Shown one piece after another: positions 9,361 to 24,678 of a DNA stretch of 64,000 nucleotides. How positions within the stretch are numbered: position 1 is the first letter of the stretch; each line of letters begins with the position of its first letter. Source of the DNA: Falsiroseomonas frigidaquae (lineage in GTDB: Bacteria; Pseudomonadota; Alphaproteobacteria; Acetobacterales; Acetobacteraceae); assembly GCF_012163145.1 (NCBI RefSeq), contig NZ_JAAVTX010000004.1:1-64000 (forward strand), read 5' to 3'. Under the pieces are notes generated by a model, which saw nothing but the letters and a program-made list of their open reading frames with translations, was not told the DNA's origin and did no database searches. The translations under genes were made by a program, and so were the position numbers.

Positions 9361-9404
9361 CTGTCATCTGGCTAACTTCCGTCTGTCATCGCACTGTCAT
9401 TACA
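9361..9404 (+). promoter_or_regulatory. Tandem Pho-box array upstream of the ugp operon
   Basis: Four consecutive 11-bp units are visible: CTGTCATctgg, CTAACTTccgt, CTGTCATcgca, CTGTCATtaca. Three begin with the exact CTGTCAT heptamer. The last two (9383-9400) form a textbook PhoB-binding box: two CTGTCAT repeats separated by 4 bases. The array ends 18 bases before the ATPase start codon, so PhoB activation under phosphate limitation is the natural inference. The close spacing means the transcript start must lie very near the ATG, or the site is read differently. Confidence 0.88.
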
Positions 9405-9422
9405 AGAGGCTAAACGCCCGTC

Positions 9423-10520
9423 ATGCCAGAACGCCCCGCAACCCAGGGCCAGCTTCGTCTTGACGGGGTGGCCAAATCCTTCGGGGCAGCCCAGGCGCTG
9501 CGCGACGTGACGCTGGCGGCCGCGCCCGGCACCTTCCTGGTGCTGCTCGGCCCCTCCGGCTGCGGCAAATCGACCCTGTTGCGCGTGCTGGCGGGGCTGG
9601 AGGCGCCGACCGCCGGCCAGGTCTTCATCAATGGCCGGGATGCGACGGGGCTGCCGCCGGCTTCCCGCGGCATCGCCATGGTGTTCCAGTCCTACGCGCT
9701 GTTCCCGCATCTGTCGGTGGCGGAGAACATCATCTTCGGCCTGCGCGCCCGCGGCGTGGGCCGCGCGGAACGTGACGCCAGGCTGTCCCGCACGGCACAG
9801 ATGATGGGCCTGGCCGGGCTGCTGGACCGCCGCCCCGCGCAGCTTTCCGGCGGCCAGCAGCAGCGCGTCGCGCTGGCCCGCGCCGTGGTGGCGGAAGCGC
9901 CGATCTGCCTGATGGACGAGCCGCTTTCCAACCTCGACGCCAAGCTGCGCGCCGAGATGCGGCGGGAGATCCGCGCGCTGCAGCAACGCCTCGGCATCAC
10001 CATGGTCTATGTCACGCACGACCAGGCCGAGGCGATGAGCATGGCCGACCAGGTGGTGCTGATGCGCGATGGCTGCGTCGAGCAGGATGCGACGCCGGCC
10101 GAGCTCTACGCCCGCCCCGCCACCACCTTCGCCGCCAGCTTCATCGGCACCCCGCCGATGTCCCTTCTGCGGCTGGTGCCAGGTGCGCATGGCGCGGAAG
10201 TGGCCGGCGCGCCGGGCCTCGCCGTGGCCCGGATCGACGCCGCCGGCGCCACGCTTGGCATCAGGCCGGAGGAAGTGGCGCCGACCGATGGCGCCGGCCT
10301 GCCGGTGCGCGTGCTCGCCGCCGAATTCCTCGGCGCGGAAACCGTGCTGGCCTGCGCGGTAGGCGATGGGGCGGAGGTGATGCAGGCCCGCATCCCCGGC
10401 CACCACGCCTTGCCCGCCGGCACCCATCTGCGCCTGCGCCTGCCGCCGGCGCTGCATCTGTTCGACGCCCATACCGGCCGGCGCCTGCCGGAGCCGGTGC
10501 GCGAAAACGCCTTCGCCTGA
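9423..10520 (+). CDS. ugpC: UgpC/MalK-type ABC importer ATPase
   Basis: ATPase of 365 residues in the carbohydrate/glycerol-phosphate importer class. Walker [10 protein letters not shown] is near residue 41, the Q-loop FQSYALFPH near residue 85, the signature [14 protein letters not shown] near residue 138, Walker [14 protein letters not shown] near residue 161 and the switch His VTHDQAEA near residue 195. A C-terminal TOBE/MOP-type regulatory domain follows from about residue 240. It is first in the operon, directly behind the Pho-box array, and is followed by two binding proteins and two permeases. Confidence 0.95.
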
Positions 10521-23630: not shown

Positions 23631-23634
23631 GCCC

Positions 23635-24678
23635 ATGTCCGATGTCGCCATCAACTTCGAAGGTGTGACCAAGGCTTTCGGCAATGTGCGCGCGGTGGAC
23701 GAGGTATCCTTCCAATTGCCGCGCGGCGCGCTGGTGACGCTGCTCGGCCCCTCCGGCTGCGGCAAGACCACGACGCTGCGGCTGGTGGCGGGGCTCGAAT
23801 TGCCGACCGGCGGGCGGATCGAGATCGAGGGCCGCGACGTCACCGGCCTCTCCGCCGCCGAGCGCCGCATCGCCATGGTGTTCCAGTCCTATGCGCTGTT
23901 CCCGCATATGAATGTGCTGGAGAACGTCTCCTACGGCCTGCTGGTGAACGGCGCCCGCAAGCCCTCCGCCGAGGCCGAGGCGAATGCCATGCTGAAGACC
24001 CTGGGGCTGGAGGGGCTGGGCCAGCGCCTGCCCTCCGAACTCTCCGGCGGCCAGCAGCAGCGCGTGGCGGTGGCGCGCGCTTTGGTGCTGCGGCCCAAGG
24101 TGCTGCTGTTCGACGAGCCGCTGTCCAACCTCGACGCGCGGCTGCGGCGGCGCGTGCGGGAGGATATCCGCGACCTGCAGCGCAAGCTGGGCCTCTCCGT
24201 CGTCTATGTGACGCATGACCAGCAGGAGGCGCTGGCCGTCTCCGACCTGGTCTGCGTGATGCGCGCGGGTAAGATCGCGCAGATGGGCACGCCAGTGGAG
24301 CTTTATGACGATCCGGCGGATGCCTTCATCGCCGATTTCATGGGCGAGGCGAATGTGCTGCAAGGCGAGGTGCTGGCCCCCGGCCGCATCGCGCTCGGCG
24401 GCATCCCGCTCGATGTGACGATGCGCCCGCATCCGTCCGGCCCGGCGCAGATCGCCGTGCGCCCCGAATCCATCCTGCCGCAGCCGGAGGGTGCCCCGGG
24501 CCTGCCCGGCCGCATCCAGCGCGCCGCCTTCCTCGGCCAGACGCGGGAGTATGAGGTGGAGACGGCGGCAGGCATGCTGTTCGTGGTGACGCCGGCGGCC
24601 AGCCTCGCCTTCGCGATGGGCGAGGCCGTATCCTGCCGGCTGGACCGGGTGATCCCGCTACGCGACGTGAAAGGCTGA
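23635..24678 (+). CDS. AfuC/PotA-type ABC ATPase
   Basis: ATPase of 347 residues. Walker A GPSGCGKTTTLR is near residue 38, the signature [15 protein letters not shown] near residue 134, Walker [14 protein letters not shown] near residue 158 and VTHDQQEALAVSD near residue 192. A C-terminal TOBE-like domain begins near residue 240. It starts 4 bases after the permease stop and completes the second ABC importer of the island. Confidence 0.94.
   Translation: MSDVAINFEGVTKAFGNVRAVDEVSFQLPRGALVTLLGPSGCGKTTTLRLVAGLELPTGGRIEIEGRDVTGLSAAERRIAMVFQSYALFPHMNVLENVSYGLLVNGARKPSAEAEANAMLKTLGLEGLGQRLPSELSGGQQQRVAVARALVLRPKVLLFDEPLSNLDARLRRRVREDIRDLQRKLGLSVVYVTHDQQEALAVSDLVCVMRAGKIAQMGTPVELYDDPADAFIADFMGEANVLQGEVLAPGRIALGGIPLDVTMRPHPSGPAQIAVRPESILPQPEGAPGLPGRIQRAAFLGQTREYEVETAAGMLFVVTPAASLAFAMGEAVSCRLDRVIPLRDVKG

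Follow-up and report, generated by a model that had tools for sequence, protein, structure and literature searches.

A composite locus of Falsiroseomonas frigidaquae joining Afu-type, inositol and Pho-boxed Ugp-type genes, and its predicted link to phosphorylated inositol

Introduction

We analyzed a locus of Falsiroseomonas frigidaquae in which an importer operon of the Ugp type, genes of inositol catabolism (iol), a phosphatase gene of the inositol monophosphatase (IMPase) family and an importer of the Afu type lie side by side. It occupies positions 9361-24678 of the window, by which we mean the whole 64,000-nucleotide stretch analyzed (positions 1-64,000 of contig NZ_JAAVTX010000004.1). 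Each part of the locus has a described counterpart. The myo-inositol pathway of the Caulobacter/Bacillus type employs IolG, IolE and IolD, and IolT is an alternative route of inositol uptake in it. Uptake by IbpA-IatAP is described in a Caulobacter study, which in the parts available to us also speculates that an HlyB-family transporter might carry inositol phosphates (PMC2597717). In AfuABC of Actinobacillus pleuropneumoniae, mutations of the binding protein AfuA at S37, T150, H205, D206 and E229 weaken or abolish binding of glucose 6-phosphate (G6P), and the main text of that report, as far as it was available, does not contain the word inositol (PMC4546632). UgpBAEC, a Pho-boxed importer of the CUT1 family, takes up glycerol-3-phosphate.

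The locus both resembles these systems and departs from them. Its Afu-type importer likewise consists of a binding protein, a permease and an ATPase, with about 305 bits to AfuA and the five residues conserved; unlike in Actinobacillus, its afuA is preceded by an IMPase-family phosphatase gene and tied to iol genes. Its Ugp-type operon belongs to the CUT1 family, is Pho-boxed and keeps the phosphate-contact residues. Unlike UgpBAEC, it carries two tandem binding proteins (SBP1 and SBP2) that have lost Glu88, Arg393 and Trp191, scores below the Ugp cut-offs and, in many relatives, has a phosphatase gene after ugpE. IolG, IolE and IolD are equivalogs of the enzymes of the known pathway (PMC2597717, in the parts available). 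The locus departs from that pathway in two ways: searches of the window's genome gave neither IolB nor DUF2090, and the importer linked to these genes belongs to a phosphate-ester type.

Our reading of the open-access literature covered titles and the beginnings of abstracts, with subscription journals and preprints outside it. Within that scope we found no tie between AfuABC, an IMPase and iol genes, and no bacterial ABC importer tied to inositol phosphate; a Pseudomonas inositol paper, in the portion available, names AfuA only among iron genes (PMC11065229). The coupling of Afu-type import, a phosphatase and inositol genes is new as a prediction.

Results

Linkage of afuABC, a phosphatase gene and inositol genes

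The gene order of the locus is ugpC-SBP1-SBP2-ugpA-ugpE on the forward strand, iolE-iolD on the reverse strand, and iolG, a short-chain dehydrogenase/reductase (SDR) gene, the IMPase-family gene and afuA-afuB-afuC on the forward strand (Table 1). Gene identities, the Pho box, recurrent linkage, the AfuA residues and the contacts kept or lost in SBP1 and SBP2 were all read from sequence. IolD, IolE and IolG each score above their own myo-inositol NCBIfam equivalog cut-off. Stop/start overlaps of 4 bp link iolG, the SDR gene and the IMPase-family gene, which confirms the coupling of the phosphatase gene to the dehydrogenase genes claimed in a preliminary description of this DNA.

We searched 299 genomes of the family for iolE and afuA. 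Overall, afuA occurred in 59 genomes, iolE in 108 and both in 39, corresponding to an odds ratio of 4.8 (Fisher p = 1.6e-7, not corrected for kinship). In 23 of these 39 genomes iolE lay within 10 kb of afuA, and the gene order varied: iolE directly before afuA (L117-L121), iolD-iolE or iolG-iolD-iolE after afuC (L122, L123), iolD before afuA (L099, L100, L103), or iolG divergent from afuA (L085, L124). Among named proteobacterial genomes we read the AfuA loci of the best 80 of 574 relatives, some of them on short contigs. A phosphatase gene stood directly 5' of afuA on the same strand in 44 of these 80 loci; 28 loci had iol genes (24 had iolE or iolD), and nine had sodium/phosphate (Na/Pi) transporter genes. 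Fifty IMPase homologues lay within five genes of afuA, 48 of them directly 5', and none occurred among 410 genes at a greater distance. Candidate loci from this set come, among others, from Falsiroseomonas, Bosea, Bradyrhizobium, Microvirga, Stappia and Burkholderiales. The linkage counts are not independent events, because the sets share genomes and descent.

The Na/Pi transporter genes appeared in 4 of 40 iol/afu loci versus 0 of 40 ugp loci. Near afuABC or iolE they were seen in four genera (L086:8441-10105, L102:449-2107, L109:2200-3882 and L122) and also in Stappia, Bosea and Tagaea loci; the copies near afuABC or iolE carry PhoU-like tails, three of these four having been scanned, and the three exceed the TIGR00704 cut-off. 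E. coli YjbB, a member of the same family, exports phosphate. By analogy, a Na/Pi transporter here would void phosphate freed inside the cell. Separately, seven loci, for example L118:13753-14691, have a TIM-barrel gene near iol genes, and in five of them it adjoins iolG. The single copy scanned is of the AP_endonuc_2 type; the gene product is a possible isomerase in IolB's stead.

The Afu-type binding protein and the phosphatase

Compared with known structures, the window's AfuA matched AfuA itself (4R72-4R75) at 305 bits, 8x1a at 315 bits and the pyridoxal-phosphate binding protein 6WCE at 271 bits. All five G6P-binding residues are present in it. Over 39 aligned AfuA rows, T150, H205, D206 and E229 are invariant, and the S37 position holds S in 25, A in 12 and N in 2. 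Binding of a cyclic sugar phosphate by this protein is predicted. Tandem arrays of three afuA-like genes, apart from the iol-linked copy, were also noticed at G152:C12:25174-28276, G292:C1:3014320-3017463 and G231:C25:19561-22727.

The phosphatase belongs to PF00459 and scores below the cut-offs of HisN (130 vs 275 bits), SuhB (103 vs 332) and CysQ (69 vs 229). The genome holds seven PF00459 members. These include two that pass the CysQ cut-off, one SuhB-like member and one HisN-like member just short of the HisN cut-off (271 vs 275, from a partial sequence). Since the HisN-like, SuhB-like and CysQ copies sit elsewhere in the genome, we rejected HisN as the identity of the phosphatase. In the phosphatase tree, read without six rows on very long branches (L220, L223, L224, L225, L231, L240) that stem from a wrong choice of frame or strand, as a check of L220, L223 and L224 showed, the iol-afu-block copies of Acetobacteraceae and the other Ugp-linked copies formed two sister clades (98/99). 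The iol-afu-block clade also takes in the copy of genome G195, which groups with the window's (100/98), and an unlinked copy of G005. The tree contains 14 of 18 ugpE-linked phosphatases, all in one clade with the window's, and leaves outside both sister clades the Afu-linked phosphatases of L085 and L124 together with many from other families. With copies from Acetobacteraceae that lack an SBP1 match inside the second clade and Afu-linked copies outside both, clade membership is no proof of one substrate.

The Ugp-type importer and its binding proteins

The Ugp-like proteins fall below the NCBIfam cut-offs for UgpB, UgpA, UgpE and UgpC (UgpB: 160.5 and 143.5 vs 411 bits). To find relatives of the operon we searched the 299 family genomes with SBP1 (E <= 1e-60); 54 matched, the window's own included, and 40 loci were read. 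Their genes come from a codon-usage caller, which may misplace starts and miss genes (L264 has no called binding protein). Both SBP1 and SBP2 were present in 29 of the 40 loci. Where at least 900 bp were left after ugpE, an IMPase-family gene followed it in 18 of 33 relatives' loci, in 16 of them within 170 bp. A class-wide search of 385 genomes (E <= 1e-90) gave 33 with a match, again including the window's own; from it we read 20 loci with Ugp orthologues in other alphaproteobacterial families, 19 of which have a called binding protein.

The alignment of SBP1 and SBP2 included UgpB from E. coli and from Phaeobacter as well as a Thermus protein, and residue roles were taken from the available part of PMC12718374. 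Both window proteins retain Y64, S143 and Y342, which contact phosphate, and have Thr in place of Ser266, as does the Thermus protein. The same Y64, S143, T266, Y342 pattern occurs in 37 of 37 SBP1 and 29 of 29 SBP2 relatives. The glycerol contacts Glu88 and Arg393, plus Trp191, are by contrast replaced in both window proteins and in all 66 relatives' rows of the alignment. These losses disfavor plain glycerol phosphate as the ligand, and they weaken the earlier proposal of a glycerol diester, as both proteins are without UgpB's glycerol-recognizing residues. Arg393 might be compensated for by a basic residue (ENQR or ENQK) that stands two columns ahead of it, so the loss of Arg393 is a result of the alignment, not of a structure. 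It is chiefly positions 191 and 393 that set SBP1 apart from SBP2, a difference that points to two related ligands.

Paralogues of SBP1 (34-37%) were considered as a control for true UgpB and rejected: they are without Glu88 yet keep Arg393 (rows L272, L274 and L276, translated in an incorrect frame, were left out of this comparison), so the loss of Glu88 is not unique to the Ugp-type system here. In distant SBP1 orthologues, Arg393 is present in L266 and L268-L271, and L267 has Lys.

Pho boxes

The units of the Pho-box array before ugpC start at 9361, 9372, 9383 and 9394. Of these the second (CTAACTT) is a poor unit, and the last two, CTGTCATCGCACTGTCAT (9383-9400), form a perfect CTGTCAT-N4-CTGTCAT. 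This is the only Pho box with zero mismatches in the whole 6.08 Mb genome, where base composition predicts 0.005. With up to two mismatches the genome holds 14 matches (one with none, one with one and twelve with two), and the reversed pattern, used as a control, gave one. PhoB is encoded in the genome (TIGR02154, 328 bits, cut-off 296); PstS, PstB, PhoU and PhoB all exceed their NCBIfam cut-offs and all lie on contig C16, where the Pho-like site CGGTCAGAAAACTGTCAC precedes two small genes directly 5' of pstS. The Pho-box array claimed before the Ugp-type importer is therefore borne out by a box that is the sole perfect one in a genome encoding PhoB, and the box together with PhoB makes PhoB control of the operon a plausible prediction.

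In relatives we scored Pho-like boxes with at most 4 of 14 mismatches, the last base being C or T. Such a box lies 5' of ugpC in 29 of 36 relatives' loci versus 47 of 289 other genes of the same loci; with at most three mismatches the counts are 14 of 36 versus 11 of 289. Singly the boxes are weak, only 5 of 38 loci exceeding 95% of 200 shuffles. Many distant genera have the form CAT-NGAA-CTGTCAC-ATGC before ugpC. The two relatives closest to the window have degenerate arrays, with 5 mismatches in L045 and 4 in L046.

The preliminary description had extended Pho control to the inositol genes. This extension is weakened: the Pho-like site before iolD (17676-17693) is common to close relatives only. 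In sister genera, most iolD-iolG gaps keep TGTT(A/G)CGG and CC(A/G)CAAGC, not the TGTCAT half; these two motifs are a possible promoter or regulator site. Both were also noted in the window's own gap (17619-17725). Across the iol-afu module we scored Pho boxes with up to two mismatches in two overlapping sets of loci. In the first set a box lies 5' of 4 of 32 afuA genes, 0 of 2 phosphatase genes, 0 of 19 iolD genes and 1 of 183 unassigned genes; in the second the corresponding counts are 6 of 74, 2 of 25, 3 of 16 and 1 of 486. Zero-mismatch boxes occur in L203 (Tagaea) and L204 (a proteobacterial metagenome-assembled genome). Pho control of afuABC is likely in some other taxa, judging from these boxes.

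Two modules that are rarely adjacent

Two conserved modules make up the locus: the iol-afu block and the Pho-boxed Ugp-type operon. The complete block, iolE-iolD / iolG-SDR-IMPase-afuABC, occurs without a Ugp operon in the stretch at eight loci of the window's genus and near genera (L109-L116), and the block is also found in Falsiroseomonas algicola, F. stagni, F. bella, Neoroseomonas marina and N. nitratireducens. Seven genomes of the window's genus were sampled, and the modules are adjacent in two only, the window's own and G231, which is Roseomonas oleicola ROY-5-3 (L138). Only the iol-afu block is present in G152 and G095; in G287, iolE is on a different contig from the phosphatase gene and afuA; and G262 gave no match in any of the four genome searches. 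G195 has ugpC-SBP1-SBP2-ugpA-ugpE followed by the phosphatase gene and no iolE or afuA match. Given the grouping of its phosphatase with that of the window, the iol and afu genes may have been lost from G195, with the phosphatase gene next to ugpE retained. Beyond these, iolE lies beside the Ugp operon in G098, G234, G227 and G285; Ugp-iol adjacency extends over three genera, and in L050 the Ugp operon adjoins afuABC. The genes had earlier been taken for one island. They do adjoin in the window, in G231 and in a few other genera, but in most genomes the modules are separate.

Discussion

We rate use of phosphorylated inositol as somewhat better than an even bet for the composite locus. AfuABC would import a cyclic polyol phosphate, most likely inositol monophosphate, and the IMPase-family enzyme would strip off its phosphate in the cytoplasm. 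IolG would then oxidize the product, IolE dehydrate it and IolD open the ring, with later steps probably running through enzymes other than IolB. The PhoB-controlled Ugp-type importer, with its two binding proteins, would bring in some phosphate ester other than plain glycerol phosphate; a related inositol phosphate is plausible, and the phosphatase would serve both importers. PhoB control, the ligands, the compound on which the phosphatase acts and the way the parts work together are all predictions here. The Afu-phosphatase-iol part is the more secure and we consider it probable; that the Ugp-type importer shares the inositol-phosphate ligand class is a tentative suggestion. The preliminary description had envisaged import, dephosphorylation and oxidation in one line; the Afu-phosphatase-iol linkage over many genera strengthens that idea, and its Ugp part stays tentative. 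A broader and more speculative picture, less likely than not, is a widespread inositol-phosphate system in which an Afu importer and a dedicated phosphatase feed the inositol pathway, at times with Na/Pi export. Here it would be joined to a PhoB-driven Ugp importer whose binding proteins have switched from glycerol to inositol-phosphate recognition, and it would have an IolB-less end.

Several observations weigh against use of phosphorylated inositol. The ligands of AfuA, SBP1 and SBP2 rest on sequence inference, and the Pho-like site before iolD, which is not conserved in sister genera, was dropped as a sign of direct Pho control. IolB (TIGR04378) was not found in the window's genome, which is 97.9% complete. 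TIGR04378 had no match in 30 of 36 genomes tested and matched in six (G102, G236, G285, G215, G085, G217); among the 23 genomes in which iolE lies no more than 10 kb from afuA, three have IolB. For DUF2090, which the IolC/J-type gene of Acetobacteraceae carries joined to PfkB, there was no match in the window's genome or in 21 of 26 tested (present in five), separate IolC and IolJ not having been searched for; because the DUF2090 model also misses the B. subtilis control, separate IolC and IolJ may exist. The known route may therefore end at IolD in this genome, and the organism must either finish the pathway without a recognizable IolB or make another product. This weakens the earlier statement that the cell burns the inositol. 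A pathway for another cyclitol or its phosphate, not myo-inositol, with an end unlike the Bacillus route, would fit the failure to find IolB and DUF2090 in this genome and in most relatives with the block, and also the extra SDR that belongs to the block. It is nevertheless improbable in our judgment, given equivalog-level scores of IolG, IolE and IolD for myo-inositol and seven loci outside the family, among the best 80 of 574, in which phosphatase-afuABC lies beside clusters with iolB and IolC/J-type genes (L148, L149, L156, L171, L175, L185, L188). Further, 20 of the 59 genomes with afuA are without iolE, and 52 of the 80 AfuA loci, some on short contigs, have no iol gene. The former count and the retention of all five tested G6P-binding residues would suit a hexose-phosphate importer as in Actinobacillus, accompanied by a general sugar phosphatase and a separate carbon route through iol. 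Under that explanation, however, the recurrent linkage of iolG, iolD and iolE in many gene orders is unexpected, and we likewise give it a small chance.

Other contrary points concern the Ugp side. The phosphatase clade also occurs in Acetobacteraceae without an SBP1 match (the second sister clade). In the 20 other-family stretches, no iol, IMPase, Na/Pi or afuA homologue was recognized near the Ugp orthologue, the sole exception being a 24% match to IolD in a generic thiamine-pyrophosphate enzyme, and Pho-like sites with at most three mismatches precede ugpC in just 5 of 18 loci. A DeoR/GlpR-like gene lies directly 5' in 8 of 19 (L261, L262, L263, L265, L266, L267, L269, L270), two scanned ones being closest to GlpR (196 and 223 bits, cut-off 331). 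Three of the 19 have an Exo_endo_phos-type gene directly 3' of ugpE (L253:11016-11855, L254:7167-8021, L268:11845-12693; two scanned), possibly a phosphatase replacing the IMPase. Within L049, a GlpR-like gene and a short GDPD-like frame stand beside the Ugp operon. Because of these GlpR-like, Exo_endo_phos-type and GDPD-like neighbors, a glycerol-type phosphate stays a live rival for the Ugp-type importer. The locus might then unite two unrelated neighbors: beside the iol-afu module there would be a Pho-controlled Ugp-type importer without any role in inositol use, taking up glycerol-type phosphates or other esters of phosphate, as the separation of the modules in most genomes and the eight DeoR/GlpR-linked loci devoid of iol genes would lead one to expect. 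Unrelated neighbors would hardly be expected to adjoin as Ugp and iol do in three genera and Ugp and afuABC do in L050, nor to be served by one phosphatase clade, and SBP1 and SBP2 are without the glycerol contacts; we regard such a chance pairing as unlikely, though worth keeping in view.

Soil holds a large pool of organic phosphorus as inositol phosphates. We found no description of bacterial uptake of lower inositol phosphates in the open-access literature covered, and the loci reported here supply transporter and phosphatase candidates for it.

Features of the locus and its surroundings

Table 1. Features of the F. frigidaquae locus in window coordinates, with family scores.
Feature	Position	Strand	Score and cut-off
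Pho-box array, 4 units in 11-bp phase: CTGTCAT, CTAACTT, CTGTCAT, CTGTCAT	9361..9402	+	
ugpC-like ATPase of a CUT1 importer	9423..10520	+	NCBIfam UgpC 386 bits, cut-off 432
SBP1, UgpB-like binding protein; phosphate contacts kept, without glycerol contacts	10538..11821	+	
SBP2, second UgpB-like binding protein; 51% identity to SBP1, tail-facing residues differ	11836..13116	+	
ugpA-like permease	13204..14079	+	138 bits, cut-off 335
ugpE-like permease	14076..14918	+	107 bits, cut-off 297
iolE, myo-inosose-2 dehydratase	14911..15783	-	TIGR04379 397 bits, cut-off 290
iolD, trihydroxycyclohexane-dione hydrolase	15780..17618	-	TIGR04377 893 bits, cut-off 715
Pho-like site 5' of iolD; 2 mismatches if last base C or T allowed	17676..17693	-	
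iolG, inositol 2-dehydrogenase	17726..18712	+	TIGR04380 444 bits, cut-off 355
SDR oxidoreductase, PRK06198 type	18709..19488	+	343 bits, cut-off 240
IMPase-family phosphatase; differs from the genome's HisN-like, SuhB-like and CysQ copies	19485..20267	+	
afuA-like sugar-phosphate-type binding protein; S37, T150, H205, D206, E229 kept	20361..21395	+	
afuB-like fused permease	21447..23630	+	
afuC-like ATPase	23635..24678	+	

The locus is flanked at window positions 24684-26557 by a DsbA-like gene and a D-amino-acid dehydrogenase-like gene. The same two genes lie near the locus in L046, L139 and L140, and in L045, where they occur without iol and afu genes. A GC-rich repeat is found at window position 13157, between SBP2 and ugpA, and two more near copies of it lie at 3874 and 3922.

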